This document shows positions 26,380 to 41,682 of a stretch of DNA of 41,854 nucleotides, one piece after another. Below the pieces are notes generated by a model that worked only from the letters and a program-made list of their open reading frames with translations, ran no database searches and was not told where the DNA came from. The position numbers and the translations under genes were made by a program. The DNA comes from Acidimicrobiaceae bacterium (GTDB lineage: Bacteria > Actinomycetota > Acidimicrobiia > Acidimicrobiales > Bog-793), in contig DAHUXW010000091.1 of assembly GCA_027306925.1 (NCBI GenBank), positions 1 through 41,854 on the forward strand. The letters are read 5' to 3'. Position 1 is the first letter of the stretch. Each line of letters begins with the position of its first letter.

Positions 26380-28677
26380 TCAACTGGGCAGGAAATGCAC
26401 GAAGCCCACGTACGGGGCGTACTCGTTGATAAGGAAGTGGAACAGGAGCCACACGGCCATCCCGACCACGACCGTGACCGCGGCGCAGTACACGATGGAC
26501 TTGCGGCGGACGACGAGGCCGTAGAGGCCGAAGCCGAGCCCGGTCGCGGGGACGATGCCGACGAGGAACGCGAGCACGAAGAACGTCCCGACGGTCGCGA
26601 CCGCGCGGGTGACCGCGTGGCGCGCCGGCGCCGTGGTGTCCTCGAGCGGTTCCGGCGCACCCGGCGTCTCGACGACCTCGACCTCGACCCTGGTCGCGAC
26701 CGCGCCTGCAGCGGCCCCCACCACGGGCTCGTCGGCGGTCGACCCGGACGGCACGGCCTCGCCGGGACCGGGAGCGGCACCCAAGAGCACGAGCTCCGGA
26801 GCGTTGAGGGCCCGGCCGACCGGTCCCTTCCCCGAGCTGCGAAGTCGCTCGCCGACGCCCAGCTCCTCGACCTGCCCGTGGACGAGGAGGCGCACGAGGT
26901 TCGCGAGCGCGAGGGCCGCGCCCACGCCCGAGACGAGCAGGAGGTCGCCGCCCGTGAGCGAGCCGTAGGTGCGCGCGATCAACGCGACGACGACGAACCC
27001 GGCGAGCAGGAGCACGGCCGCGATCGTGGGCCCGTCCGCGCGCGACTTGAACGTTGCGATGCGACGGCCACCTCGGGTGCGCGACGCCGCGGCGGGCACG
27101 TCACCGGGGACATCTCCGGGCACGTCCGGGGTGCGGCGACGCTGCTTCGCGACGCGCACCCCCCAGGTCGCAAGCGTGAGCAGGATCGCCGCGAAGATCG
27201 CACCGGCGAGCGGGCGCTTGAACATGAACCCGTCGCCGTAGAGCGTCGTCGAGATGTGGAGGTTGCTCTCGATGATCGGGCCGAGCACGAGACCGATGAT
27301 GAGGTTGATCCTCGAGTAGTTGAACTTCCAGAAGAAGTAGCCGAGTATGCCGATCACGCCGGTCGTCACGACGTCCCCGAACGACCCGTTCACCGCGAAG
27401 CTCCCGACGACCGAGACCGTGAGCACGAGCGGGATGAGCGTCGTCTTCGGGATCGTCGTCAGCTTCGCGAACTGCTTCGCGAACACGAGGCCGATGAGCA
27501 TCATCGCGAGGCTCGCCCCGACGATGAGCCAGATGATCGAGAAGACCGTGGGGAGGTGGTTGCTGAGCATCGCCGGCCCCGGCGCGATGCCGAGCGTCAC
27601 GAAGGCCGCGAGGAGGATCGCCTGCTGCTCGTGGGTCGGGATGCCGAGGCTGAGCAGCGGGAGCATCCCGCCGCCCTCCGCGGCCGACTCGGTCGCCTGG
27701 GGGGCGATGACGCCCTCGATCGCGCCGAGCCCGAACTCGACGTCGGACTTCGAGTACTGGGCCGCCTGGCCGTACGCCGCGACCGCCGCGACCGGCGCGC
27801 CGAAGCCCGGGACGGTGCCGGTCAGGACGCCGAACGTCGCCATGTAGAGCTCGAGCTTCCAGTGCCGGAGGACGGCACCGAGGCCGTGCAACGAGGTCCT
27901 CGTGCCCCGAAGGTCGCCGAGGTTCGGCCGGAGCCCGCCCCGGGCGCGGGCGACCTGCGCGGACCGCTCGGGCCGCCGGACGCCGCGACGAAAGCGGTCC
28001 GGCTCGGCGACCAGCCGCATGACCTGCACGACCGCGAACAGGCCGATTGCGACGTCCGCGACGGGAACGCCGCTCGACAGGTAGAGCGAGCCGAACGTGA
28101 GCCGGTTGACGCCCGTGATCGGGTCCTGGCCCACCCAGGACAAGATGATGCCGACGCCGAACGCGAGAAGCCCTTTCGTGAGGTTGCCCGAGCTCAGGAT
28201 CGCGATGAGGATCGCGCCGAGGAGCGCGAGCAGTAGCACCTCGGGCGGCCCGAGGTAGTCGAGCAGGCTGCGCATCACCGGGATCCCCACGGTGAGCGCG
28301 ATCGCGCCGCACACGCCGCCGATCCCCGAGGCCGACGCGGACGCGCCGAGCGCGTAGGCCCCCTTGCCCGAGCACGCGAGCGGGTAGCCGTCCCAGCAGA
28401 GCGGCAGGCTCTTCGCCGACGCCGGGATGTCGAGCGTGATGCTCGTGATCGAGCCGCCGAAGTACGTCGCGATGTGCGTGCCGAGCAGGAGCGCGAGCGC
28501 GACCGGGAGGCTCAGCTTGTACATGAAGGGCAGGAGCAGCACGAGCGCGACGTTCCCGCCGACGCCGGGCATGAACGAGATGAGCATCCCCCAGACGATC
28601 CCGATGCTCAGGCCGGCGAGCGTCGCGAGGCTGATGATGCTGTTCAGCCCCGAGAGTGATGCGTGCAGGTACGTCAC
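26380..28677 (-). CDS. Fused TctA-TctB membrane transporter
   Basis: A 765-residue protein joining the large TctA permease (about 1-520) to a TctB-like small subunit (about 560-765); most bacteria encode these separately. TctA features are GMLISFMPGVGGNVALVLLLPF, the repeated-half counterpart FGVLTGTVPGFGAPVAAVAAYG, and GSITSITLDIPAS. The C-terminal part has four predicted helices split by a long hydrophilic, Pro/Ala/Glu-rich loop (about 620-690), probably cytoplasmic. The transporter is a secondary, cation-coupled importer working with the binding protein. GTG at 28677 is used; its ribosome binding site is weak, while the leader upstream is long and structured. Confidence 0.9.
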   Translation of the reverse strand: MTYLHASLSGLNSIISLATLAGLSIGIVWGMLISFMPGVGGNVALVLLLPFMYKLSLPVALALLLGTHIATYFGGSITSITLDIPASAKSLPLCWDGYPLACSGKGAYALGASASASGIGGVCGAIALTVGIPVMRSLLDYLGPPEVLLLALLGAILIAILSSGNLTKGLLAFGVGIILSWVGQDPITGVNRLTFGSLYLSSGVPVADVAIGLFAVVQVMRLVAEPDRFRRGVRRPERSAQVARARGGLRPNLGDLRGTRTSLHGLGAVLRHWKLELYMATFGVLTGTVPGFGAPVAAVAAYGQAAQYSKSDVEFGLGAIEGVIAPQATESAAEGGGMLPLLSLGIPTHEQQAILLAAFVTLGIAPGPAMLSNHLPTVFSIIWLIVGASLAMMLIGLVFAKQFAKLTTIPKTTLIPLVLTVSVVGSFAVNGSFGDVVTTGVIGILGYFFWKFNYSRINLIIGLVLGPIIESNLHISTTLYGDGFMFKRPLAGAIFAAILLTLATWGVRVAKQRRRTPDVPGDVPGDVPAAASRTRGGRRIATFKSRADGPTIAAVLLLAGFVVVALIARTYGSLTGGDLLLVSGVGAALALANLVRLLVHGQVEELGVGERLRSSGKGPVGRALNAPELVLLGAAPGPGEAVPSGSTADEPVVGAAAGAVATRVEVEVVETPGAPEPLEDTTAPARHAVTRAVATVGTFFVLAFLVGIVPATGLGFGLYGLVVRRKSIVYCAAVTVVVGMAVWLLFHFLINEYAPYVGFVHFLPS

Positions 28678-29089: not shown

Positions 29090-30181
29090 TCAGGGGCCGG
29101 CGAAACGCTCGAGGTCCGTGTGGCCGAGCCCGGGACCGTCGCCGAGCGCGACCCGACCCGCCTCAAAGGTCGCGCCGCCCGCGGCGACGACGCCCGCGAG
29201 CCACCACGGCGCGTCGAGGTCGACCGAGGTGACCTCGACGCGGCCCGCGGCGAGGCATGCGGCGGCGGTCGCAGAGATGTTCGCCTCCATCATCGACCCG
29301 ACCGAGCACTCGATCCCGGCCGCGCGCGCGGCCGCGAGCATCGCGAGCGCCGGACGGATTCCTCCCGACTTCATGAGCTTCACGTTGATCGCGTCGGCAG
29401 CCCGCCGCCGAACGAGCTCGACGACGTCTGCGGGCGAGAAGCAGCTCTCGTCCGCCATCACCGGCGTCTCGACCGACGCGGTCACGTACGCGAGCGCGTC
29501 GAGGTCGCGCGCCGGCACCGGCTGCTCGACGAGCTCGATCCCGAGGCCGGCGTCCTCGAAGCGACGGATGAGCGCGACCGAGCCCTTCGCGTCCCACGAC
29601 TGGTTGGCGTCGACGCGGATCCGCACGAGGTCGCCGACGCGAGCTCGCACCGCCGCGACGCGCGCGAGGTCGAGCGCAGCGGGACCTCCGAGCTTCACCT
29701 TGAGCACCGAGAAGCCGTCGTCGACGCGCCGGGACGCGGCGTCCGCCATGACGTCCGGCGGCGCGAGCGAGACCGTGACGTCGGTGACGAGCTCCTTCCG
29801 GGCACCGCCGAGCAGCCGGTGGAGCGGGGCGTCGAGCGAGCGTGCCCACAGGTCGTGGAACGCGACGTCGACGGCGGCCTTCGCGCTCGCGTTCCCGACG
29901 ATCGCGCGCGACATGCCCTCGAGCGCCGCGTCGATCTCGTCCACCCGTCGGCCGACCACCGCGTCACCGAGCGGGCCGCCCACCGCCGCGACGATGCTCG
30001 CGCGCGTCTCGCCGGTGATCTGTGGCGTCGGGACGGCCTCGCCGATCCCCACGCGCCCGTCGGTGTCGCGAAGCGCGACGACGACGCCACCGACCGCCGT
30101 GACCGACCGGAGCGCGGTCACGAACGGCTCGCGGAGCGCGAGCTCGTAGGGCGTGACCGTGACGGTGGCGACAGACGTCAC
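29090..30181 (-). CDS. L-Ala-D/L-Glu epimerase (dipeptide epimerase, enolase superfamily)
   Basis: A 363-residue member of the muconate-lactonising subgroup. The catalytic K-x-K is in VLKVKLGG, the metal ligands in RVDANQSW, ELVEQPV and MADES, and the second catalytic Lys in INVKLMKSGG. The C-terminal DLDAPWWL is the substrate-recognition motif of L-Ala-D/L-Glu epimerases, which contact the dipeptide amino group. It would convert L-Ala-D-Glu from cell-wall stem peptides to L-Ala-L-Glu for ordinary peptidases. It follows murQ-nagA after 31 bp and uses a GTG start with a weak ribosome binding site. Context strongly supports the muropeptide role. Confidence 0.9.
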   Translation of the reverse strand: MTSVATVTVTPYELALREPFVTALRSVTAVGGVVVALRDTDGRVGIGEAVPTPQITGETRASIVAAVGGPLGDAVVGRRVDEIDAALEGMSRAIVGNASAKAAVDVAFHDLWARSLDAPLHRLLGGARKELVTDVTVSLAPPDVMADAASRRVDDGFSVLKVKLGGPAALDLARVAAVRARVGDLVRIRVDANQSWDAKGSVALIRRFEDAGLGIELVEQPVPARDLDALAYVTASVETPVMADESCFSPADVVELVRRRAADAINVKLMKSGGIRPALAMLAAARAAGIECSVGSMMEANISATAAACLAAGRVEVTSVDLDAPWWLAGVVAAGGATFEAGRVALGDGPGLGHTDLERFAGP

Positions 30182-30212: not shown

Positions 30213-32276
30213 TCACGGAACGGCGACCTCCCGGCCGTGCCGGTACACGCGCTCGAGCGCGAGGTCGTCGTCGAGGACGAGCAGGTCGGCCGGCGCTCCG
30301 GGGTACAGCTGGCACACGGGCTCGCGTCCGAGCAGGCGCGCGGGCACGTCGGTCGCCGCTCGGATCGCCGCCGCGCGGTCGATGCCGAGCCTGGCGAGCA
30401 GGCGCAGGCCGTCCCTCAACCGCCCGACGCTGCCGGCGATCGTGCCATCCGCGCGGCGCGCGACCCCGTTCTCCACGGTGACGGTCACCTCGCCGAGATG
30501 CACCGTCCCGTCGTGGGTCGCCGCAGCTGCGATCGCGTCGCTCACGATTGCGCAGCGTCCGGGCGCCGCCGCGAACGCCAGCCGGATGAGGTCGTCCGCG
30601 ACGTGGACCCCGTCGGCGATGAGCTGGACGACGATGCCGGGTCGGGCGAGCGCGGCGCCCGCGAGCCCCGAGAAGCGCGCGCGCACCGGCTCCATCGCGT
30701 TGAACAGGTGCGTGACCGCCCCCGCCCCCGCGTCGAACGCGCGGCCGGCCTCGTCGCTCGACGCCGCGCTGTGCCCGAGCGACACGACGACCCCACGACG
30801 ACGGCACCGCTCGACGAGGTCGATCGCGCCGGGAAGCTCCGGAGCGATCGTGACCATCGTCACGTCCCCGGCGTCGAGGAGCCGGTCGAGAAGCGCGGGA
30901 TCCGGCGCCAGCAGCCGGTCCGCCGGGTGGGTGCCCGAACGCGCGGGCGCGAGGAACGGACCTTCGAGATGCACGCCCAGGATCGACGCTCCCACGCCTC
31001 GCCGAGCCGCCTCGCCGAGGAGGCGCTCGGCGCGCAGCGCTGCGTCGGGCGCCGAGGTGATGATCGTCGGCAGGTACGCCATGACTCCGTCGCGCAGCAG
31101 CGCCTCGCCCATCGCGAGGAGCGCGTCCACGTCCGCGTCGAGCACGTCGACGCCCGCGTACCCGTTGACCTGCGCGTCGACGAGTCCGGGCACGGCGTAC
31201 CCGGAACCGCCGCCCGACAGGCCGACCGCGGCGATCTCGCCGTCGCGCAACGCGACGTCACCGGGGACGAGCGCGCGCCCGACCATCGCGGCACGGACGC
31301 CGAGCCGGGTCCATCCCTGCGGCGCCGTCCGTCGCGCGGGCCGAGCCGCCGAGCGGTCGTGGAGCGACGCGAGCGCGGGCCGGAGCTTGCCGCCGAACCG
31401 GTCGAGGAGCTCGGCTGCGGCCGCAGGAGCCAGTCCGCCGGCCGCCATCACCGCGGCGACCTTCGGGCGCCATCCGCTCGCCTCGAGCGCGATCGTCGCC
31501 TGGGCGTGCGTCGTGCCGACGACACCGGCGACGATCCGAGCCGCGCGATCTCGCAGCTTCGCGTTCGTCGGTCGCAGGTCGACCATCAGGTTCCCGTACG
31601 TCTTGCCGAGCCGGACCATCGCGGCCGTCGAGATGGTGTTCAGGACGACCTTCTGCGCCGTCCCCGCGTTCAGCCGAGTCGATCCCGCGACGACCTCGGG
31701 GCCCACCGGCACCTCGATCGCCACGTCCGCGGCCGCCCCGAGCGGAGAGCCCGTGTTGCACGCGACCGCGACCGTCAGCGCGCCGGCACGGCCGGCGGCC
31801 TCGATCGCGGCGAGCACGTACGGCGTGCGACCGCTCGCGGAGATGCCGACCACGGCGTCGCTCGGCGAGATGCCGAGTGCGCGCATCGCCGCTCCTCCAC
31901 CGGCGCGGTCGTCCTCGGCGTTCTCGACGGCGACCCCGAACGCGCCACTCCCGCCCGCGAGGACGCCGACGACCTGGCCCTCGGAGGTGTTGAACGTCGG
32001 CCCGGCCTCGGCGGCGTCGAGCATCCCGAGGCGGCCGGCCGTGCCGGCGCCGACGTACACGAGCCGCCCGCCGCGCTCGAGCCGGCCGACGACCCCGGAG
32101 ACCGCCTGCGCGATCGCACCCTCGACCGACGAGAGCGCAGCGGTCACGCGACCGACGTCCGTGCACATGAGGTTCACGAGCTCCTCGGTCGAGAGCTCGT
32201 CGAGGTGAGCGAGCTCGGGCCGCACCTGCTCGGTCCCGAGGCCGGCGAGCTCGCCGACGTCCCCGCCCTGCGTCAT
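30213..32276 (-). CDS. MurQ-NagA fusion: MurNAc-6-P etherase and GlcNAc-6-P deacetylase
   Basis: A 687-residue bifunctional enzyme. Residues about 1-300 are MurQ: VYVGAGTAGRLGMLDAAE and VENAEDD carry the two acidic catalytic residues, and GISASGRTPYV and TRLNAGTAQK bind the phosphate/sugar. It splits MurNAc-6-P into GlcNAc-6-P and D-lactate. Residues about 318-687 are NagA: VDAQVNG (Q-x-N metal-site variant as in E. coli), GVHLEGPFLAP, LGHSAASSDEA, THLFNAM and VSDAIAA. It deacetylates GlcNAc-6-P to GlcN-6-P. The fusion joins two consecutive steps. An Ala/Arg-rich linker (about 297-318) connects them. It overlaps the hydrolase gene by ATGA. Confidence 0.93.
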   Translation of the reverse strand: MTQGGDVGELAGLGTEQVRPELAHLDELSTEELVNLMCTDVGRVTAALSSVEGAIAQAVSGVVGRLERGGRLVYVGAGTAGRLGMLDAAEAGPTFNTSEGQVVGVLAGGSGAFGVAVENAEDDRAGGGAAMRALGISPSDAVVGISASGRTPYVLAAIEAAGRAGALTVAVACNTGSPLGAAADVAIEVPVGPEVVAGSTRLNAGTAQKVVLNTISTAAMVRLGKTYGNLMVDLRPTNAKLRDRAARIVAGVVGTTHAQATIALEASGWRPKVAAVMAAGGLAPAAAAELLDRFGGKLRPALASLHDRSAARPARRTAPQGWTRLGVRAAMVGRALVPGDVALRDGEIAAVGLSGGGSGYAVPGLVDAQVNGYAGVDVLDADVDALLAMGEALLRDGVMAYLPTIITSAPDAALRAERLLGEAARRGVGASILGVHLEGPFLAPARSGTHPADRLLAPDPALLDRLLDAGDVTMVTIAPELPGAIDLVERCRRRGVVVSLGHSAASSDEAGRAFDAGAGAVTHLFNAMEPVRARFSGLAGAALARPGIVVQLIADGVHVADDLIRLAFAAAPGRCAIVSDAIAAAATHDGTVHLGEVTVTVENGVARRADGTIAGSVGRLRDGLRLLARLGIDRAAAIRAATDVPARLLGREPVCQLYPGAPADLLVLDDDLALERVYRHGREVAVP

Positions 32277-33370
32277 GCGACGAACCTCGCGACCGCGCGG
32301 TGAACTCGCTCGCGGAGCGCCGCCTGGCGCTCGAGCGCGCGCACCGGATGGATCGCGTTGGTCAACAGGGCGATGCCGACTCCGGTGTCCGGGGAGACGA
32401 GCAGGGACGTGCCCGTGAACCCCGTGTGCCAGTACGCGGTCGCGGGCCAGTCGCCCCATGCGGCGGGATCGACGCGCCAGCCGAGGCCCCGGACCTCCGG
32501 CGCCGTTCCCGCGTGTGCGCGGCCCATCGACGCGATCGTCTCCGGCGCGAGCACCGGGTGGTGCTGCGGGTCGAGGAGCGCCGAGACGAAGCGCGCGAGG
32601 TCCTCGCACGGGGCGAACAGGCCCGCGTGGCCGGCGATGCCACCGAGCGCGTGCGCGTTGCCGTCGTGCACCTCTCCCCACACGAGCCCCGGCGTCCTCC
32701 GCTGGTCGCCGTCAAGCTCCGTCGCCGCGGCACGCGCCCGCTCACGGGCCGGCGGGCGGAAGCGCGTGCGGCTCATGCCGAGGGGTCGCGCGACGAGATC
32801 GCGGAACAGCCGGTCGAGGCGCTCGCCCGCCACGGACTCGACCGCCCAGCCGAGGAGCATGTAGTTGAGGTCGCTGTACAGCACCCCGCCCGGGTCCGAG
32901 CCCCGCGCACCTTCCTCGAGCACCGCCCGGCGAACCGCGGCGGCGCCGTCGAGGGTGAGGAAGAAAGGGACGTGCGCGACGATCCCGGAGGTGTGCGTGA
33001 GGAGGTGCGCGAGCGTCACGTCCCCGCGGGTGAACTCTGGGAGATGCGACGCGAGCGCGTCCTCGAGCCGCCAGCTCCCCTCGTCCGCGAGGCGGAGCGC
33101 GAGGGTGGTCGTCGCGACGACCTTCGTGAGGGACGCGAGGTCGTAGAGCGTGCGCGAGGTCGCGGCGACCCCCGGCTCGAGCGTGCACGCGCACCCGCCC
33201 CATGCGCGGACGAGCGTGCCCGCGCGCCCGACGACGGCGAGGTCGAGCGCCGGGGGGAAGCCGGCCGCGAGCGCGTCGGCGAGCTCGTCGACGAGCGCCG
33301 ACGCGCCGGCGCCGTGTCCTCGCCGAGCTCGGATCTCGACGTGCAGGCGCTCGCCTCCCGTGCAGCTCAC
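32273..33370 (-). CDS. Beta-lactamase-fold serine hydrolase, AmiE/YbbE-like
   Basis: A 365-residue class C-type serine hydrolase. The nucleophile motif is S80-LT-K83, the second motif YSDLNYMLLG (Tyr165) and the third HTGFTG. There is no signal peptide, so it acts in the cytoplasm, unlike a resistance beta-lactamase. In Bacillus subtilis a protein of this fold (YbbE/AmiE) sits in the murQ-nagZ cluster and removes the stem peptide from MurNAc; I infer the same role here, feeding sugar to AnmK/MurQ and peptide to the epimerase. It starts at GTG 33370, overlapping the regulator's stop, and ends in an ATGA overlap with murQ-nagA. A D-amino-acid peptidase or esterase remains possible. Confidence 0.85.
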   Translation of the reverse strand: MSCTGGERLHVEIRARRGHGAGASALVDELADALAAGFPPALDLAVVGRAGTLVRAWGGCACTLEPGVAATSRTLYDLASLTKVVATTTLALRLADEGSWRLEDALASHLPEFTRGDVTLAHLLTHTSGIVAHVPFFLTLDGAAAVRRAVLEEGARGSDPGGVLYSDLNYMLLGWAVESVAGERLDRLFRDLVARPLGMSRTRFRPPARERARAAATELDGDQRRTPGLVWGEVHDGNAHALGGIAGHAGLFAPCEDLARFVSALLDPQHHPVLAPETIASMGRAHAGTAPEVRGLGWRVDPAAWGDWPATAYWHTGFTGTSLLVSPDTGVGIALLTNAIHPVRALERQAALRERVHRAVARFVA

Positions 33371-34749
33371 GGCAGCGCGGCCTGGTCGGGGAGCGAGCCG
33401 GCCGCGGCGCGCCCGTCCGGCGCGGCAGCGGTCCCGACCGCGCCACCGGCGCCGTTCGCGCGACCCGCCGGCGCCCGCCGCGACGGCTCGCGCCGCATCC
33501 TGATCTCGTCGGCGCCGTAGCGCGGCTCGATGCGCTGGGCACCGTCCGGCTCGAAGCCGGCAGCGGCGTAGAGGGCACGCGCGCGACCGTTGGCCTCGAA
33601 GACCCAGAGCGTGGCCGCACGGCGGCCACGGGTCTCGATCTCGCCGATCGCGCGCTCGAGCAGCCGGCGACCGACACCGCGCCCGGCGGCCTCGGGTGCC
33701 ACGTAGAGGGCGTACACGTGGCCGTCGCGCGGATCGTCGGGGTCGTCGCCGTAGCGGGTGAAACCGACCACCCGCCCGGGCGGCACCTCCGCGACGAGCG
33801 TGTGCTGCACTCCTGTCGTCACCAGGTTCCCGAGCCAGTCGGTGATCTCGTCCTCGTCGAGCGCGGCGATGACCGAGTCGTCGACGACCCCTCGGTACGA
33901 GCCTCGCCACGCCTCGACGAAGACGCGCGCGAGCGCGCGGGAGTCCTCGCGGCGCGCCGGGCGGAGGTTCGCGTCGCCCGCCGACCACGCGGGCGCCGAA
34001 CCGCGCTCGTGGGGCCGCTCGAGGTGCGTGCGGAAGCGGAACCGGTCGCCACGGTAGAGGGATCGGACGTACTCGGTCGGCTGGCCGCGCGTGTCGAGCG
34101 TCCGGCGCGAGAGCAGCAGCAGCGGGGCACCCGGCCACGAACCCAGCAGCTCCACCTCGCGGTGCCCCGCGACGACCGCCTCGATCGTCTCCTCCGCCGA
34201 CGCGAGCTCGACGCCGTAGTCGGAGTAGAGGAGCTGGTACAGCGAGCCGCTCTCCCCGAGCGCGGAGGTGATGCCGTCGAAGCGCGCCGCGCTCAGGTAG
34301 AGGACCTCGATCGCGATCGGGTCACCGTCCGCGAGCCTGAGCCGCTCGATCCGGAGAACCTCGGCGTCGGGCGCGAGCCCGAGCCGCGGACCGACGTCCG
34401 CGCCGGCGGGGATCCTGCGGACGTCGATGAGCTTGGAGCCGGGGATGATGCCGCGTGCCCGCATGCCCTCCGTGTGGCTCGTGAGCTCGAGCGGCTGCTC
34501 GATCTTCGCCTGCGCGACGAAGGTGCCCTTGCCCTGACGCCGGTAGATGCGCTGCTCGAGCTCGAGCTGCTGGAGCGCCTGGCGCACCGTCGAACGCGAC
34601 ACCCCGTACGACAGGCACAGCTCGCGCTCGGTCGGGACGGGCGATCCGGCGGGGAGGCCACGGATGAGTGCGGCGAGTGCGGCGCGGAGCTGCCGGTACT
34701 TCGGCTGACCGCCCGCGTCCTCCGCCGGCTGCACCTCTCCGTCGAGCAC
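33367..34749 (-). CDS. GntR/HutC-family regulator fused to a GNAT acetyltransferase
   Basis: A 460-residue three-domain protein. Residues about 16-82 form a GntR winged helix-turn-helix (PTERELCLSYGVSRSTVRQA). Residues about 95-245 are a UTRA ligand domain like that of NagR/DasR, which senses GlcN-6-P or GlcNAc-6-P. Residues about 262-415 are a GNAT acetyltransferase with the acetyl-CoA loop VAPEAAGRGVGRRLL and the late segment ARALYAAAGFEPDG. The tail is low-complexity. A fused enzyme is unusual for this family. As first gene of the muropeptide operon, with a palindrome in its own promoter, it probably autoregulates and responds to amino-sugar phosphates. The GTG at 34749 has GGAGGTGA just upstream. 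Confidence 0.92.
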   Translation of the reverse strand: MLDGEVQPAEDAGGQPKYRQLRAALAALIRGLPAGSPVPTERELCLSYGVSRSTVRQALQQLELEQRIYRRQGKGTFVAQAKIEQPLELTSHTEGMRARGIIPGSKLIDVRRIPAGADVGPRLGLAPDAEVLRIERLRLADGDPIAIEVLYLSAARFDGITSALGESGSLYQLLYSDYGVELASAEETIEAVVAGHREVELLGSWPGAPLLLLSRRTLDTRGQPTEYVRSLYRGDRFRFRTHLERPHERGSAPAWSAGDANLRPARREDSRALARVFVEAWRGSYRGVVDDSVIAALDEDEITDWLGNLVTTGVQHTLVAEVPPGRVVGFTRYGDDPDDPRDGHVYALYVAPEAAGRGVGRRLLERAIGEIETRGRRAATLWVFEANGRARALYAAAGFEPDGAQRIEPRYGADEIRMRREPSRRAPAGRANGAGGAVGTAAAPDGRAAAGSLPDQAALP

Positions 34750-34796: not shown

Positions 34797-34825
34797 AACG
34801 TACCAAGAGGCTTTGGTCCGGTCAA
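34797..34825 (-). promoter_or_regulatory. Promoter and operator of the regulator-murQ-nagA operon
   Basis: Minus strand: TTGACC (34820-34825), 17-bp spacer, TACGTT (34797-34802). A palindrome with ACCAA/TTGGT arms and 6-bp centre (34802-34817) fills the spacer, so a bound dimer would block polymerase. The predicted start is near 34790, giving a leader of about 41 nt. The likely binder is the GntR-GNAT protein. Confidence 0.65.
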
Positions 34826-34908: not shown

Positions 34909-34937
34909 TTGACCGTACCATATGACACTTGTAAGGT
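34909..34937 (+). promoter_or_regulatory. Promoter of the peptide-transporter/anmK operon
   Basis: TTGACC (34909-34914), 17-bp spacer, TAAGGT (34932-34937). The predicted start near 34944 gives a 44-nt leader ending in the AAGGGGG ribosome binding site of the binding-protein gene. It diverges from the regulator promoter, with about 80 bp between the -35 boxes, an AT-richer stretch. Confidence 0.65.
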
Positions 34938-34987: not shown

Positions 34988-36550
34988 ATGGGCCGTCTAC
35001 GCAAGCTCAGAGCAGTAGCTGCAACAGCGCTCGCCGGCGGTATCGCGGCGACGCTCACCGGAGGCGCGGCCGCGCTCGCGAGCCCGTCGGCGAAGTCCGT
35101 GGTCCACGCGTCGTCGAGCGCGCCGTTCGTCATCGCGGACACCTCCAGCGTGCAGAAGCTCGACCCCGACGTCATCACGAACTTCCTCGACTTCCAGGCG
35201 CTCGGGCTCATCTACGACACGCTCGTCCAGGAGAACGCGAAGCTCCAGCTCGTCCCGGACCTCGCGACGAGCTGGTCGTTCTCGGACGGGAACAAGGTCC
35301 TCACGTTCCAGCTCCGCAAGGGCGTCAAGTTCGACGACGGGAGCACGTTCACCTCGCGCGACGTCGTCGCGTCGATGAAGCGGGTCGTCGCGCCAAAGAC
35401 CGGCGACGCGTCCGCGTCCTTCGTCGCGTCGGTGAGGTCGGTCGTGCCGGAGGGCCCGTACAAGGTGAAGTTCGTGCTCAGCCACCCGGACGTGTCGATC
35501 CTCGAAGGGCTCACGTCCGTGAACCTCGCGATGCTGCCCGCCAAGGCGATCGCGAACGGCTCGATCGCGAAGCACCCTGACGGCACGGGGCCGTTCAAGT
35601 TCTCGAGCTGGAGCCCGGGGAACTCCTTCGTCATGAAGGCGAACCCGGCGTACTGGGGCGGGAAGCCGACCTTGTCGACGGTGAAGATCGAGACGATCCC
35701 GTCGGAGCAGTCGATCGCCTCCGCGCTCCAGGCCAACAGCGTCCAGCTCGGCCTGCTCACCGAGCCACAGGTCGCGAACCACCTTCCGAGCGCGTACAAG
35801 GTCCAGAAAGTGCTCAGCCTCTCCTACCGCGCGCTGATGCTCCAGGATCGGACGGGGCCGCTCGCGAACGTGAACGCCCGACGCGCGATCGCGTGCGCGA
35901 CGAACCGCAAGCAGATCCTCGGCGCCTCGGTGTTCGGCCAGGGCGTCGTCGTCGGACCGGTGCCGCTCGGGCCGTTCGCGTCGAAGCCGGTGTCGTCGCT
36001 CTGCCCGACCCAGGACCTCGCGATGGCGAAGAGCTTCCTCAAGAAGGCGGGAATGGTGAACGGCTTCTCGTTCACGGCGATCACCTCGACCGACCTCGAC
36101 CCGACGAGCGCGGCCCAGGCCGTCGCGATGCAGTCGCAGCTCGCCCAGGTGGGGATCCACATGAACATCCAGAACCTCGCCGGTGACGCGTACATTCAGG
36201 ACTGGCTGAAGGGCAACTTCCAGGCCGCGTTCGCCGAGAACGGCGCGAACCCGGACCCGTACGTCATGTACGGCCGCTACTTCGGCGCCGGCGCGAACCT
36301 CGGAGTGCCGGCGGGATACAGTTCGGCCGCCCTCCAGAAGCTGCTGCTCCAGGGTGACGAGGCCGCCTCGACGGCCAACCAGGCCAAGATCTGGGCGGCG
36401 CTCTCCGCGAACCTGACGAACAACGCGGTGTGGATCTGGCTGTTCGACGCCTTCAACTACGCCGCTCTCGCACCGTCTGTGCACGGGTTCAGCATCTCGC
36501 CCGTGACGGGGACGTCGCTCCAGGCGCTCCGCTCGACCACCGTCTCATAG
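34988..36550 (+). CDS. Peptide ABC transporter solute-binding protein (family 5)
   Basis: A 520-residue DppA/OppA/MppA-type binding protein. A Sec-type signal (RLRKLRAVAATALAGGIAA, cleavage near residue 31-45) lacks a lipobox, unusual for a Gram-positive binding protein that needs a membrane anchor. Family landmarks are DTLVQENAKLQLVPDLATSW, FQLRKGVKFDDGSTFTSRDV, and HPDGTGPFKFSSW with NPAYWGGKP. It would capture peptides or muropeptides outside the membrane. The permeases, ATPases and anmK follow on the same strand, separated by a strong hairpin. Linkage with murQ-nagA and the epimerase suggests cell-wall peptides or MurNAc-peptides as cargo; this is inference. Confidence 0.92.
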   Translation: MGRLRKLRAVAATALAGGIAATLTGGAAALASPSAKSVVHASSSAPFVIADTSSVQKLDPDVITNFLDFQALGLIYDTLVQENAKLQLVPDLATSWSFSDGNKVLTFQLRKGVKFDDGSTFTSRDVVASMKRVVAPKTGDASASFVASVRSVVPEGPYKVKFVLSHPDVSILEGLTSVNLAMLPAKAIANGSIAKHPDGTGPFKFSSWSPGNSFVMKANPAYWGGKPTLSTVKIETIPSEQSIASALQANSVQLGLLTEPQVANHLPSAYKVQKVLSLSYRALMLQDRTGPLANVNARRAIACATNRKQILGASVFGQGVVVGPVPLGPFASKPVSSLCPTQDLAMAKSFLKKAGMVNGFSFTAITSTDLDPTSAAQAVAMQSQLAQVGIHMNIQNLAGDAYIQDWLKGNFQAAFAENGANPDPYVMYGRYFGAGANLGVPAGYSSAALQKLLLQGDEAASTANQAKIWAALSANLTNNAVWIWLFDAFNYAALAPSVHGFSISPVTGTSLQALRSTTVS

Positions 36551-36620: not shown

Positions 36621-37577
36621 TTGCTTCTGGGAATCGTGCGCCGGATGCTCAGCATGGCGCTCACGCTCTTCGGCGTGTCGGTCGTCATCTTCGTCGTCCT
36701 TCGCCTGCTCCCCGGCAACGCCGTGACCGCGTCGCTCGGCGTGAGCGCCGGCCTTCTCACCCACGCGCAGCTCGCCGCGCTGAACCACTTCTACGGTGTC
36801 GGCCAACCCGCGATCGAGCAGTTCTTCTCGTGGCTCGGGTCGACGCTCAGCGGGAACCTCGGAGTATCGCTCGCGTCGCGCGAGCCGGTGAGCACGCTGG
36901 TCGGCCAGCCGCTGCTCGTCACCCTCGAGCTCGCGGCAGTGGCGATGGTGCTCGGAGTCCTCATCGGGGTCGGTTTCGGGATGGTCGGCGCGATCCGCCC
37001 GGGACGTTGGCCGGACGACGTCGGCCAGGGTGTGTCCGTCGTCGGCCTCGCGATCCCGAGCTTCGTCATCGGAACCGGCCTCGTGACGTTCCTCTCCTCG
37101 ACCTTCCACTACTTCCCGTCGTCCCAGGGGTACGTGAGCTTCCTGCAGGACCCATGGCTCAACCTCCAGCAGATCTTCTTCCCGGCGCTGACGCTCAGCC
37201 TCGGGATCGGCGCAGCGATCATGCGCACCACGCGCGCGGCCGTGCTCGAGGTCAGCGGCCTGAACTTCACGCGCACCGCCCGCGGGAAGGGCGTGTCCAC
37301 CCAGGCCCTCGTCTGGCGGCACCTGTTCCTGAACGCGCTCGTGCCGATCGTCACGATGTCCGGGATCCAGCTCGGCTACCTACTCGGCGGCACGGTGATC
37401 GTCGAGCAGATCTTCGTCCTCCCGGGGCTCGGCCGGCTCCTCGTGAGCTCGATCAACAACCGGGACTTCCCGGTCGTCCAGAGCGTCACGCTCATATTCG
37501 CAACCGGATTCGTGGTCGTGAACATGCTCGTCGACGTCCTCTACACGATCATCGACCCGCGGACGCGCTCGCGGTGA
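36621..37577 (+). CDS. dppB: Peptide ABC transporter permease, DppB type
   Basis: A 318-residue integral membrane protein. The N-terminal helix IVRRMLSMALTLFGVSVVIF, LLPGNAVTAS and five further helices follow the DppB/OppB plan. The EAA-type cytoplasmic loop (FTRTARGKGVSTQALVWRH) contacts the ATPases. TTG at 36621 is used, with AAGGGG about 8 nt upstream; a GTG at 36636 is an alternative. It overlaps dppC by GTGA. It forms the import channel with DppC. Confidence 0.93.
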   Translation: MLLGIVRRMLSMALTLFGVSVVIFVVLRLLPGNAVTASLGVSAGLLTHAQLAALNHFYGVGQPAIEQFFSWLGSTLSGNLGVSLASREPVSTLVGQPLLVTLELAAVAMVLGVLIGVGFGMVGAIRPGRWPDDVGQGVSVVGLAIPSFVIGTGLVTFLSSTFHYFPSSQGYVSFLQDPWLNLQQIFFPALTLSLGIGAAIMRTTRAAVLEVSGLNFTRTARGKGVSTQALVWRHLFLNALVPIVTMSGIQLGYLLGGTVIVEQIFVLPGLGRLLVSSINNRDFPVVQSVTLIFATGFVVVNMLVDVLYTIIDPRTRSR

Positions 37578-38464
37578 CGGATCTCTCGACCGCAGACGTC
37601 GCCGCCGGCGGCGAAGCCGCGCCGATGCACCGGTCGTGGGCAGGCGCGATCTGGCACAGCCGCAACGGCCGCATCGGGTGCGTGCTCGTCGCGCTCGTCG
37701 CGCTCGGCGGGGTGCTCGGCGCGTCGGGGATCACGCCGCATCCCCCGGGCGCGCAGGACGTGAACGCCGCCCTTCGCGGCGTCGGCATCGGACACCTGTT
37801 CGGGACCGACCAGTTCGGGAGGGACGTCTTCTCGCAGGTCCTCCAGGGGCTCGGCGTCTCGCTCGAGATCGCGGCGCTCGCCGTGCTCATCGCGGGAGCG
37901 GTCGGGACGCTCGGCGGGATCCTCGCCGGCTTCATCGGGAGGTGGGTCTCGGCGGTCATCATGCGGGCGACCGACGTCATGTTCGCGATCCCGGCGATCC
38001 TGCTCGCCCTCGCGATCGTGACGGCACTCGGCCCGAGCATCCTCGACAGCGCCATCGCGATCGGCGTCGGCTACGTGCCGATCTTCGTGCGCGTCGTGCG
38101 CGGGCCGGTGCTCGCGCTGCGCGAGGCGGACTTCGTGCGCGCAGGCCGCGTGCTCGGCTTCACGCGTTCGCGGCTGCTCTTCCGGCACATCCTGCCGAGC
38201 GTCGCCGGCGCGGTCGCGGTCCAGGCGAGCCTCGCGCTCGCCTGGGCGATCCTCGCCGAAGCGAGCCTGAGCTTCCTCGGCCTCGGCCCGCCGCCCCCCA
38301 CTGCCTCGCTCGGCGAGATGGTCAGCGAGTCGAGCAGCCTTGCGAGCAGCGCGTGGTGGACCCTCGCCGGACCGTCGATCGCGATCATCGTCGCGGTCAT
38401 CGGCTTCAACTTCCTCGGCGACGGGCTACGCGACGCCGCCGATCCCCGCGCCCGGACGAGGTGA
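37574..38464 (+). CDS. dppC: Peptide ABC transporter permease, DppC type
   Basis: A 296-residue partner permease. GIGHLFGTDQFGRDVFSQVLQG is the conserved periplasmic segment of DppC/OppC proteins. The EAA loop is ADFVRAGRVLGFTRSRLLFRH and the C-terminus has ASLSFLGLGPPPPTASLGEM. Six helices are expected. The GTG at 37574 overlaps the dppB stop by 4 bp, indicating translational coupling. It pairs with DppB; ATPases come from the two last genes of the operon, beyond anmK. Confidence 0.93.
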   Translation: MTDLSTADVAAGGEAAPMHRSWAGAIWHSRNGRIGCVLVALVALGGVLGASGITPHPPGAQDVNAALRGVGIGHLFGTDQFGRDVFSQVLQGLGVSLEIAALAVLIAGAVGTLGGILAGFIGRWVSAVIMRATDVMFAIPAILLALAIVTALGPSILDSAIAIGVGYVPIFVRVVRGPVLALREADFVRAGRVLGFTRSRLLFRHILPSVAGAVAVQASLALAWAILAEASLSFLGLGPPPPTASLGEMVSESSSLASSAWWTLAGPSIAIIVAVIGFNFLGDGLRDAADPRARTR

Positions 38465-38468
38465 CCAC

Positions 38469-39650
38469 GTGCGCGTGATCGGCATGATCTCGGGGACGTC
38501 CTACGACGCGATCGAAGCGGTCGCGCTCGAGATGGAGCTCGTTGGCGCCACCGTGTCGGCCGAGCTGCGCGGCCACGTGTCCGCGCCGTACCCGCCGGCG
38601 GTCCGCGACCTCGTCGCGTCGGTGCTTCCTCCGGCGGCCACCACGATCGAGGACGTCTGCCGGATCGACACGCTCGTCGGCCAGAGCTTCGCGTCGGTGG
38701 CGGTCGAGCTCGCGGCGACGGCGTTCGGCGGCGAGGCGGACGTCGTCTGCTCGCACGGCCAGACCGTCTTCCACTGGGTCGACGCGGGGCGCGCCCGTGG
38801 GACCCTACAGCTCGGGCAGGCCGCGTGGATCGCGGAGGCGACGGGCGCGACGGTCGTGACCGACGTGCGGAGCCGTGACGTCGCCTCCGGCGGCCACGGC
38901 GCGCCGCTCGCGAGCCTGCTCGACGTCATGGTGCTGGGCGCGCACCCGAGCACGGTCCGGGCCGCCCTCAACCTCGGCGGCATCGCGAACATCACCGCCG
39001 TCGGGCCCGACGCCGAGCCGGTCGCGTTCGACATCGGACCCGCGAACGCGCTCATCGACGCGGCCGTGCGCATGCTCTCCGGTGGGACCGAGGAGTACGA
39101 CCGCGACGGCCGGCGCGCGACGCGCGGCGAGGTCGACCGAGCGCTTCTCGACGTGCTGCTCGACGATCCCTACTACGCCCGTCCTGCGCCGAAGTCGACC
39201 GGCAAGGAGCACTTCCATCTCGGCTACCTCCTCGAGCGGCTCGACGGACACGAGGTCGCCCCGGACGACCTCGTCGCGACGCTCACCGCGCTCACGGCGG
39301 AGACCGTCGCACGGTCGGTCGCCGAGCTCGGTGTCGTCGACCTCGTCGTCTCCGGCGGAGGCACGCGCAACCCGGCCCTGATGGACGCGCTCGCGCGGCT
39401 CCTCCCCGCCGTCGCGATCGCGCCGATCGACGTGCTGGGCATCCCCGAGCAGGCCAAGGAAGCCGTCGTCTTCGCGCTCGTGGGACTGCTCACCGTCCAC
39501 GGCATCGCGGGGAACGTGCCCTCGTGCACGGGCGCCGCGCACTCGGCCGTTCTCGGCGCCGTCGTGCCGGGACGCCAGCGGGTCGTCGAGCTGCGCGAGC
39601 ACGAGCGTCCGACCACGTTCGTCATGGTGCGCCCGACCGGTGCCCCGTGA
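38469..39650 (+). CDS. anmK: Anhydro-N-acetylmuramic acid kinase
   Basis: A 393-residue ASKHA-fold kinase that opens and phosphorylates 1,6-anhydro-MurNAc to MurNAc-6-P, the MurQ substrate. Visible motifs are GMISGTSYDAIEAV (canonical GLMSGTSLDGVD), CSHGQTVFH, DVRSRDVASGGHGAPL, NLGGIANIT, and FDIGPANALID, which carries the catalytic Asp. The phosphate-binding loop is thus a variant (Tyr-Asp-Ala-Ile-Glu in place of Leu-Asp-Gly-Val-Asp). The GTG at 38469, 4 bp after the dppC stop, has GAGGTGA upstream. It overlaps dppD by GTGA. A kinase embedded between permease and ATPase genes points to tight coupling of import and phosphorylation. Confidence 0.9.
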   Translation: MRVIGMISGTSYDAIEAVALEMELVGATVSAELRGHVSAPYPPAVRDLVASVLPPAATTIEDVCRIDTLVGQSFASVAVELAATAFGGEADVVCSHGQTVFHWVDAGRARGTLQLGQAAWIAEATGATVVTDVRSRDVASGGHGAPLASLLDVMVLGAHPSTVRAALNLGGIANITAVGPDAEPVAFDIGPANALIDAAVRMLSGGTEEYDRDGRRATRGEVDRALLDVLLDDPYYARPAPKSTGKEHFHLGYLLERLDGHEVAPDDLVATLTALTAETVARSVAELGVVDLVVSGGGTRNPALMDALARLLPAVAIAPIDVLGIPEQAKEAVVFALVGLLTVHGIAGNVPSCTGAAHSAVLGAVVPGRQRVVELREHERPTTFVMVRPTGAP

Positions 39651-40630
39651 GCGGCCCCGTGCTCTCGATCCGCGGGCTGCGCGTCGGCATACGGGGTCGA
39701 CGCGGCGTCGAGGAGATCGTGCGTGGCGTCGACCTCGACGTCGCCTCGGCCGAGAAGGTGGGGGTCGTCGGCGAGAGCGGCTCGGGAAAGACCTTGACGA
39801 TGCTCTCCGTGCTCCAGCTGCTCCCGAGCCCACCGCTCGCCGTGCTCGGCGGGAGGGTGCTGCTCGACGGCGAGGACCTCCTGACGGCCGACGCGCGACG
39901 GCTCCGCGAGGTACGGGGCGGCGAGGTCGCGATGGTCTACCAGGACCCGATGAGCTCGCTGAACCCGCTCACTCGCGTCGGTCGCCAGATCGTCGAGGCC
40001 CTGCGCGCCCACGGGACCGGCGACAAGGTGGCGCGCGCGCGGACCCGCGAGGTCCTCGGGGAGGTGGGCCTTCCCCACCCGGACCGCATCGAGCGCGCGT
40101 TCCCCCACGAGCTCTCCGGCGGCATGCTGCAGCGGGTGATGATCGCGATGGCGCTCGCCACCTCGCCGAAGGTGCTCGTCGCAGACGAGCCCACGACCGC
40201 GCTCGACGTGACGATCCAGCAGCAGATCCTCGAGCTGGTCTCCCGCCTGCAGGCTTCGACGTCGATGTCCGTCGTGTGGGTGACCCACGATCTCGGTGTC
40301 GTCGCCCAGCTCGTCGACCGGGTCGTCGTGATGTACGCGGGCCGGGTGGTCGAGCGCGCGCCGACCCACCGGCTGTTCGCCGCGCCCACACATCCGTACA
40401 CGGCGGCGCTTCTCGCCTCGCTGCCCGGACCCGAGATCGGTCACCGGCGCCCGCTGCACCAGATCGGCGGCACGCCACCCGATCCCTCACGGCTCGGCGC
40501 GGGATGCCCGTTCCGAGCGCGCTGCCCGTACGCCGAGCAGCGTTGCGCCGAGCACGAGCCGGAGCTCGAGGAGCGCGGCGCCGGGAGCTTCGCCGCGTGC
40601 TGGAAGGATCCGGGAGCGTGGGCGAGGTGA
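39647..40630 (+). CDS. dppD: Peptide ABC transporter ATPase, DppD type
   Basis: A 327-residue ATPase. Walker A is GESGSGKT, the Q-loop VYQDPMSSLNPL, the signature LSGGMLQR, Walker B VLVADEPTTALD, the switch WVTHDL. The C-terminal oligopeptide-transporter extension has HPYTAALLASLPG and a CPFRARCPYAEQRC cluster, which binds an Fe-S cluster in some DppD proteins. It overlaps anmK and dppF by 4 bp each. It powers the DppB/DppC channel together with DppF. Confidence 0.94.
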   Translation: MSGPVLSIRGLRVGIRGRRGVEEIVRGVDLDVASAEKVGVVGESGSGKTLTMLSVLQLLPSPPLAVLGGRVLLDGEDLLTADARRLREVRGGEVAMVYQDPMSSLNPLTRVGRQIVEALRAHGTGDKVARARTREVLGEVGLPHPDRIERAFPHELSGGMLQRVMIAMALATSPKVLVADEPTTALDVTIQQQILELVSRLQASTSMSVVWVTHDLGVVAQLVDRVVVMYAGRVVERAPTHRLFAAPTHPYTAALLASLPGPEIGHRRPLHQIGGTPPDPSRLGAGCPFRARCPYAEQRCAEHEPELEERGAGSFAACWKDPGAWAR

Positions 40631-41682
40631 CCGCGGCGGCCCGGCACGGAGGTTCCGACGGTCCCGGCATCCCCGCGCTCCGCTGCGTCGACCTCGCGAA
40701 GCACTACCCGAGCCGGCGGCGACAACCCACGGTCATGGCGTTGCGAGGCGTGTCGTTCGAGGTGCCGGCCGGATCGACCTTCGGCGTCGTCGGGGAGAGC
40801 GGCTGTGGAAAGTCGACGCTCGCACGCCTGCTCGTCGGGCTCGAGGCGCCGACGTCGGGCGCGGTCGAGATCGCCGGGCGCCGTGTCGACACGGGACCTC
40901 GCTCGGATCGGCGCGCGCTCGCGCGCCGGATACAGCTCGTGTTCCAGGATCCCTTCTCGTCGCTCGATCCGCGCATGCCGGTCGCGCGCGCTCTCGACGA
41001 GGTGCTCCGATTCCACCACTTGCACGACGACCGGCGCGACGAGCGCGTCGTCGAGCTTCTCGACATGGTCGCGCTCGGAGGGCGCTTCGCCCGGCGGTAC
41101 CCGCACGAGCTCTCGGGCGGGCAGGCCCAGCGCGTCGCGATCGCGCGAGCGCTCGCCGTCGAGCCGCAGGTCCTCGTCCTCGACGAGCCGACCTCCGCGC
41201 TGGACGTGTCCGTGCGCGCCGAGATCATGAACCTGCTCGTCCGGATCCAGGACGAGCTCCGGCTCTCGTACCTGTTCATCAGCCACGACCTCAGCATGGT
41301 CCGGCACGTGAGCGACGACATCGCCGTCATGTACCTCGGACGCGTCGTCGAAGTCGGGCGCTACGACGCGGTCCTCGACGCTCCGATGCACCCGTACACA
41401 CGGGCGCTCGCCGACGCCGTTCCCGTCCCCGACCCGGACGCGAAGCGCACGAGCCACGAGGCGCGCGCCGTCTCGCACGGCGGACGGGCGGACCCGCCGC
41501 CGGAGCCGGCGAGCGCGCGCGACGTCGACGACGAGCACGCGTGCGCCTTCCTCCCGCGCTGCCCGGTCGCCGAGCGCGTCTGTGGCGAGCGCGCCCCCCG
41601 GCTGGCGCCCGCCGCGGCGGGCCACGAGGTCTCGTGCCACGTCGCCTCGGCCGCGGCCGGCCTCGGGCCGGCGGACCGCTGA
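40627..41682 (+). CDS. dppF: Peptide ABC transporter ATPase, DppF type
   Basis: A 351-residue second ATPase. Walker A is GESGCGKST, the Q-loop VFQDPFSSLDPRM, the signature LSGGQAQR, Walker B VLVLDEPTSALD, the switch FISHDL. The C-terminal extension includes MHPYTRALADAVP and a CAFLPRCPVAERVC cysteine cluster with two later Cys. I chose the GTG at 40627, which overlaps the dppD stop as GTGA like the other junctions; a GTG at 40618 is an alternative. It is the last gene of the operon; no obvious terminator hairpin with a T-tract follows. Confidence 0.94.
   Translation: MTAAARHGGSDGPGIPALRCVDLAKHYPSRRRQPTVMALRGVSFEVPAGSTFGVVGESGCGKSTLARLLVGLEAPTSGAVEIAGRRVDTGPRSDRRALARRIQLVFQDPFSSLDPRMPVARALDEVLRFHHLHDDRRDERVVELLDMVALGGRFARRYPHELSGGQAQRVAIARALAVEPQVLVLDEPTSALDVSVRAEIMNLLVRIQDELRLSYLFISHDLSMVRHVSDDIAVMYLGRVVEVGRYDAVLDAPMHPYTRALADAVPVPDPDAKRTSHEARAVSHGGRADPPPEPASARDVDDEHACAFLPRCPVAERVCGERAPRLAPAAAGHEVSCHVASAAAGLGPADR

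Follow-up and report, generated by a model that had tools for sequence, protein, structure and literature searches.

The closest described counterparts of the regulator analyzed here are DasR of Streptomyces and NagR (YvoA) of Bacillus, GntR-UTRA proteins with which it shares the order of winged helix-turn-helix and UTRA domains, ligand-contact residues, palindromic operators of the TGGTC type, and an amino-sugar operon setting. The enzymes encoded beside it, AnmK, MurQ and NagA, are those of known MurNAc/peptidoglycan recycling. For the acetyltransferase that the regulator carries, precedents come from a bacterial enzyme described as N-acetylating the GlcN ends of peptidoglycan fragments, and from RmNag, a GH3 N-acetylglucosaminidase of fungal origin that carries a glucosamine N-acetyltransferase of the GNAT type (both in PMC4680927). 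A glucosaminide acetyltransferase of Clostridium acetobutylicum, which we compare by its description only, is tied to salvage of peptidoglycan fragments, but is not fused to a regulator as far as it is described.

In a 41,854-nucleotide stretch of DNA from an Acidimicrobiaceae bacterium (contig DAHUXW010000091.1; hereafter the window), positions 33367-34749 on the minus strand encode a 460-residue protein that joins a predicted DasR/NagR-type GntR-UTRA repressor to a GNAT acetyltransferase. The original prediction had placed a winged helix-turn-helix, a UTRA domain and a GNAT domain in one chain at this locus; we find the ORF in a single frame, and the GntR, UTRA and Acetyltransf_1 matches all exceed Pfam's curated cut-offs. 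The GntR winged helix-turn-helix spans residues 18-78 (34516-34698, minus strand; PF00392, 1.4e-15) and the UTRA effector domain residues 99-238 (34036-34455, minus strand; PF07702, 1.8e-40). The GNAT domain, supported by Pfam (PF00583), AlphaFold2 and VIA-align, occupies residues 259-425 (33475-33975, minus strand), with the Acetyltransf_1 match itself covering residues 316-399 (6.4e-15). An AlphaFold2 model of the full-length protein (mean pLDDT 90) shows three confident domains, a short linker at about residues 244-256, and a disordered tail at residues 433-460. The ORF begins with a GTG codon preceded by GGAGGTGAC.

By scanning genome contigs and searching the genomes of relatives, we found the uninterrupted regulator-GNAT frame in 12 loci (the window, L037-L045, L090 and L098), and a thirteenth fused locus (L046) is truncated by the end of its contig. 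Since all 12 read through without a stop codon, a local sequencing or assembly error is excluded. The alternative that two separate genes had been misread as one through a frameshift falls with it, and the domain order GntR-UTRA-GNAT recurs in 11 loci beyond the window. Ten aligned fusions share 54-64% identity with the window protein; L098 matches it at 67% across the GntR-UTRA portion and at 59% across the GNAT. By their labels, the carriers are mostly metagenome-assembled genomes of Acidimicrobiaceae and other actinobacteria, with two labelled Acidobacteria and Dormiibacterota. A phylum-wide sample searched at E<=1e-60 returned, besides the window protein, solely DasR-like proteins without a GNAT, from large genomes, and none of 968 matching plasmid records covers more than 80% of the fusion chain. 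We found no description of a GntR-UTRA-GNAT fusion in the literature searched. The regulator-enzyme fusion is real and conserved, and apparently previously undescribed.

The gene order bears out the original prediction in making the fusion the first gene of an amino-sugar operon. Downstream on the minus strand lie a serine hydrolase of the beta-lactamase/PBP4B fold (32273-33370; PF00144, 8e-56), a 687-residue single-chain MurQ-NagA protein (30213-32276; NCBIfam MurQ 3.9e-105, nagA 1.3e-68), and an enolase-superfamily enzyme (29090-30181) that is probably an L-Ala-D/L-Glu epimerase, judged from a profile match below the equivalog cut-off. The first three genes overlap by start and stop codons: the GTG start of the hydrolase overlaps the TGA of the fusion (GTGA), and the ATG of murQ-nagA overlaps the hydrolase stop codon (ATGA). 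A divergent operon on the plus strand opens with an Opp-type (family 5) solute-binding protein (34988-36550; PF00496, 1.8e-74) and continues with ABC permease 1 (36621-37577; Pfam), ABC permease 2 (37574-38464; an ORF conserved in the cluster), the anhydro-MurNAc kinase AnmK (38481-39650; NCBIfam 5.7e-156, above cut-off), ABC ATPase 1 with an oligopeptide C-terminal domain (39647-40630; Pfam) and ABC ATPase 2 (40627-41682; an ORF conserved in the cluster). Relatives retain this core layout except at contig ends, while the epimerase is not a constant neighbor. AnmK itself is rare in the class, occurring in 10 of 395 genomes at E<=1e-30. Unlike the known AnmK-MurQ-NagA recycling set, the window cluster adds the Opp-type importer, the MurQ-NagA fusion and the GNAT. 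A targeted literature search for a MurQ-NagA fusion returned no paper by title or abstract. Further along the minus strand (26380-28677) is a 765-residue TctA-type transporter ORF in which Pfam covers residues 23-461 only, with about 300 C-terminal residues unmatched.

From sequence comparisons we assign the regulator half to the GntR/HutC repressors, and among these to the DasR/NagR subgroup. Of known structures it matches DasR best (50% identity, E 3.6e-62), and 13 of the 14 residues by which DasR contacts GlcN-6-P and GlcNAc-6-P (PMC4918961) are identical in the window protein, some of them lying just outside the Pfam UTRA match; the fourteenth, Tyr98, is His in the window and in nearly all fusions. 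The fused GntR-UTRA halves form one clade (support 100/98), which adjoins a clade with Streptomyces-like DasR sequences, a join supported at only 90/81. The window protein differs from DasR and NagR in its additional C-terminal GNAT.

In the 238 bp between the two divergent operons we predict two dre-like operators. The first, TTGACCGGACCAA (34813-34825, minus strand), is the sole exact match in the genome and carries the TGGTC half-site common to dre; its other half departs from the dre consensus, so that unlike operators of the DasR/NagR type it has a TTGAC half-site next to TGGTC. The second, TTGACCGTACCAT (34909-34921, plus strand), follows the conserved pattern with 2 mismatches, 96 bp from the first. 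Among the 13 fused loci, L046 included, two predicted sites at up to 2 mismatches are present in nine and a single one in three; L098 lacks any. Shuffled intergenic regions yield 0.01-0.07 sites per region, a comparison somewhat favorable to the consensus because it was derived from those very regions. The predicted sites rest on this conserved pattern, since a repeat search for operator palindromes returned none; a promoter scan gave no sigma-70-like site. Across the 2.87-Mb genome there is a single occurrence of the exact pattern, and allowing 1 mismatch adds one more occurrence, not above the reversed control. Given this single exact site, the fusion looks like a dedicated local repressor, in contrast to DasR with its global regulon, with repression and effector both inferred. 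In L098 (14047-14290), half-sites TTGAC and ACCAA are present at a different spacing, and sites of the common spacing are absent.

The C-terminal half is a GNAT by fold, and we predict acetyltransferase activity for it. The isolated domain is modeled with a pLDDT of 95.5 by AlphaFold2 and superimposes on 1wk4 with a Z score of 23.0 and an rmsd of 1.8 over 165 aligned residues (VIA-align). In an alignment of 33 GNATs, the acetyl-CoA loop maps to residues 354-362 (AAGRGVGRR; 33664-33690, minus strand). The original prediction called this loop intact, and that is right for its GxG core (G-R-G-V-G, residues 356-360) but not for the whole motif: every cluster member retains G-x-G/A, while the first position of Q/R-x-x-G-x-G/A is mostly not Q or R, nor is it in the window. 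Acetyl-CoA-binding residues are not lost on alignment, and Tyr394 is invariant across all 33 sequences. At the beta-4 position (residue 344), 16 of 16 cluster GNATs checked have His or Gln; GNATs of another lineage, in L099 and L103, show this trait too. In 18 of 20 GNATs from other settings, the residue is Glu. We count the His or Gln shared by the cluster GNATs in favor of the salvage reading. In an ungapped phmmer register, however, residue 344 aligns with Glu234 of mycothiol synthase, a catalytic base, and the change from Glu to His or Gln in the fusion clade counts against reading the GNAT as a pathway enzyme. So does its rate of change: in three of five pairs the GNAT half diverges faster than the regulator half, a pattern that would also suit a chance fusion of no functional consequence, its GNAT in decay. 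We hold such decay to be highly improbable, because dN/dS for the GNAT is about 0.1-0.4 (with dS near saturation), indicating purifying selection, the core, the Tyr and a C-terminal motif are conserved throughout the GNAT clade, and the domain is present in all 14 clusters of that clade, including those marked by loss of the regulator half.

This loss is seen in two clusters, L086 and L088, which lack the regulator half and have no operator site within 2 mismatches, and in which the GNAT still occupies the slot ahead of the serine hydrolase. In the GNAT tree, the two unfused domains and the 12 fused ones form one clade (100/99). A tree built from six further genes of the cluster puts L086 and L088 at two distinct positions among the fused loci, and its well-supported branches force three changes. 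Because the fused GntR-UTRA halves also form one clade, the three changes are most simply read as one fusion followed by two losses of the regulator half. We considered GntR proteins near the clusters of genomes G003 and G011 as substitute regulators and rejected them, as their identity across the whole domain is just 37-39% or so; in the regulator tree, the one near the G003 cluster (L087) falls outside the DasR clade. Two more distant genomes carry similar clusters with an unfused GNAT of a second lineage: in L103 the GNAT lies between NagA and an ATPase, and L099 also has such a gene. In a further locus, L107, the gene immediately after anmK encodes a GNAT that is truncated where the contig ends. 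No GNAT was found close by in the six remaining AnmK loci, several of which lie on short contigs or have different transporters. Since the GNAT is kept after loss of regulator and operators, and GNATs recur beside such genes elsewhere (unfused in L099 and L103, truncated in L107), our best reading of these comparisons is that it behaves as a pathway enzyme and not as a regulatory appendage. In L099 (2200-2420), the GNAT gene comes first and a separate DasR-like GntR gene second, the two overlapping by GTGA; upstream, near this pair, lies TGGTCTAGACCA, a dre site close to the canonical form.

Retention of the GNAT without the regulator also bears on the idea that it targets lysines in the DNA-binding part of its own chain for acetylation, such that the acetyl-CoA level would relieve repression directly. 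DasR offers a parallel, as acetylation of K78 by acetyl phosphate abolishes its DNA binding in Saccharopolyspora erythraea (PMC11323494); K78 probably corresponds to the wing lysine K74 of the window fusion, and a linker lysine, K82, is invariant in 11 of 11 aligned fusions. K82 is, however, shared with the GNAT-free DasR and NagR, and at the DNA-contacting wing position four of the 11 aligned fusions (L041, L042, L044 and L090) have Arg or Ser in place of lysine. With the GNAT persisting in L086 and L088 after the regulator half and operators were lost, and the wing lysine not conserved, self-regulation is unlikely, and the coupling of acetyl-CoA level to transcription proposed in the original prediction is not supported.

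We therefore propose, with a probability of about two in three, that the fusion is a bifunctional repressor and enzyme of muropeptide and amino-sugar salvage, and that its GNAT acetylates a cell-wall-derived amine; ligand, DNA binding, activity and substrate are all inferred. The Opp-type importer would bring in muropeptides or muropeptide sugars, which the hydrolase, AnmK, MurQ and NagA would convert to GlcN-6-P. The DasR/NagR-type half would bind the two dre-like sites of the promoter between the divergent operons until released by a build-up of GlcNAc-6-P or GlcN-6-P, which MurQ and NagA produce. The C-terminal half would serve as an acetyl-CoA-dependent N-acetyltransferase among the cluster's pathway enzymes, and fusion would mainly couple its dose and timing to the operon. 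Its acceptor is likely a primary amine on imported cell-wall material, in keeping with the proposal in the original prediction that the protein could acetylate a metabolite it senses or a cell-wall fragment, a substrate class that fits the operon setting.

Our leading guess for the acceptor, drawn by analogy, is a de-N-acetylated GlcN, MurN or anhydroMurN unit that would be re-acetylated before other enzymes can act. RmNag is similar in that a GNAT is joined to a protein of amino-sugar salvage and acetylation readies a deacetylated sugar for the pathway, but its partner is a glycosidase and not a regulator, and it has two GNAT units (PMC4680927); its structure (4zm6) matches the window GNAT only marginally in sequence (E 0.08). 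Several points count against the proposed salvage role. A bulk catabolic enzyme on a DNA-tethered dimer is an unusual placement, and L098 keeps the fusion without a site within 2 mismatches. The sequence and fold searches produced no match that gives a substrate for the GNAT: the fold search returned 845 PDB matches at E<=0.001 with no substrate-specific answer among the matches listed, and the nearest of those listed, 1wk4, has a record title that names no substrate. Neither the RmNag GNAT nor human GlcN-6-P acetyltransferase is among the matches listed (50 of 845).

A more specific suggestion, also made in the original prediction, was that the enzyme acetylates GlcN-6-P in opposition to NagA, in a futile or buffering cycle that would set the effector level. 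The regulator pocket suits both GlcN-6-P and GlcNAc-6-P, and NagA is encoded in the same operon, but this last point cuts both ways: since NagA lies downstream in the same operon, acetylating GlcN-6-P would simply reverse it. The genome moreover carries predicted NagB-family genes able to use GlcN-6-P, and no similarity to GlcN-6-P acetyltransferases appears among the sequence and fold matches listed. We consider this substrate quite unlikely. The broader idea that the enzyme half makes or removes the metabolite sensed by the UTRA domain, so that one molecule would set both flux and transcription, with the GNAT performing a step, so far undescribed, that would re-acetylate muropeptide sugars after their deacetylation, is speculative and doubtful.

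Peptide amines are a serious alternative, although we judge them improbable as the substrate. Under this alternative the GNAT would acetylate muropeptides on their peptide or amino-acid moieties (stem peptide, D-amino acids or diaminopimelate), either to make use of them or to detoxify them. In its favor are the oligopeptide-type transporter, the in-frame joining of GNAT and serine hydrolase in L088, and several structural neighbors whose substrates are amino acids or the ends of peptides. There is no specific family match to go with these, however, and likeness of fold within the GNATs does not yield a substrate.

The salvage reading predicts that the acetyltransferase takes part in cell-wall salvage of these actinobacteria. 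Since clusters that dropped the regulator half still hold on to the enzyme half, growth on some cell-wall fragments should depend on the enzyme, and its retention after loss of the switch points to an unrecognized enzymatic step in cell-wall recycling. Fused, adjacent and unfused arrangements, together with those that have lost the regulator, form a rare natural series that offers material on how sensors and enzymes join and part.

Other genes of the cluster are also joined in single chains. The frame across the MurQ-NagA junction is open in 11 of 11 relatives checked, and the GNAT-serine hydrolase chain of L088 (13979-15634, genome G011) is 551 residues long, with both Pfam domains detected.
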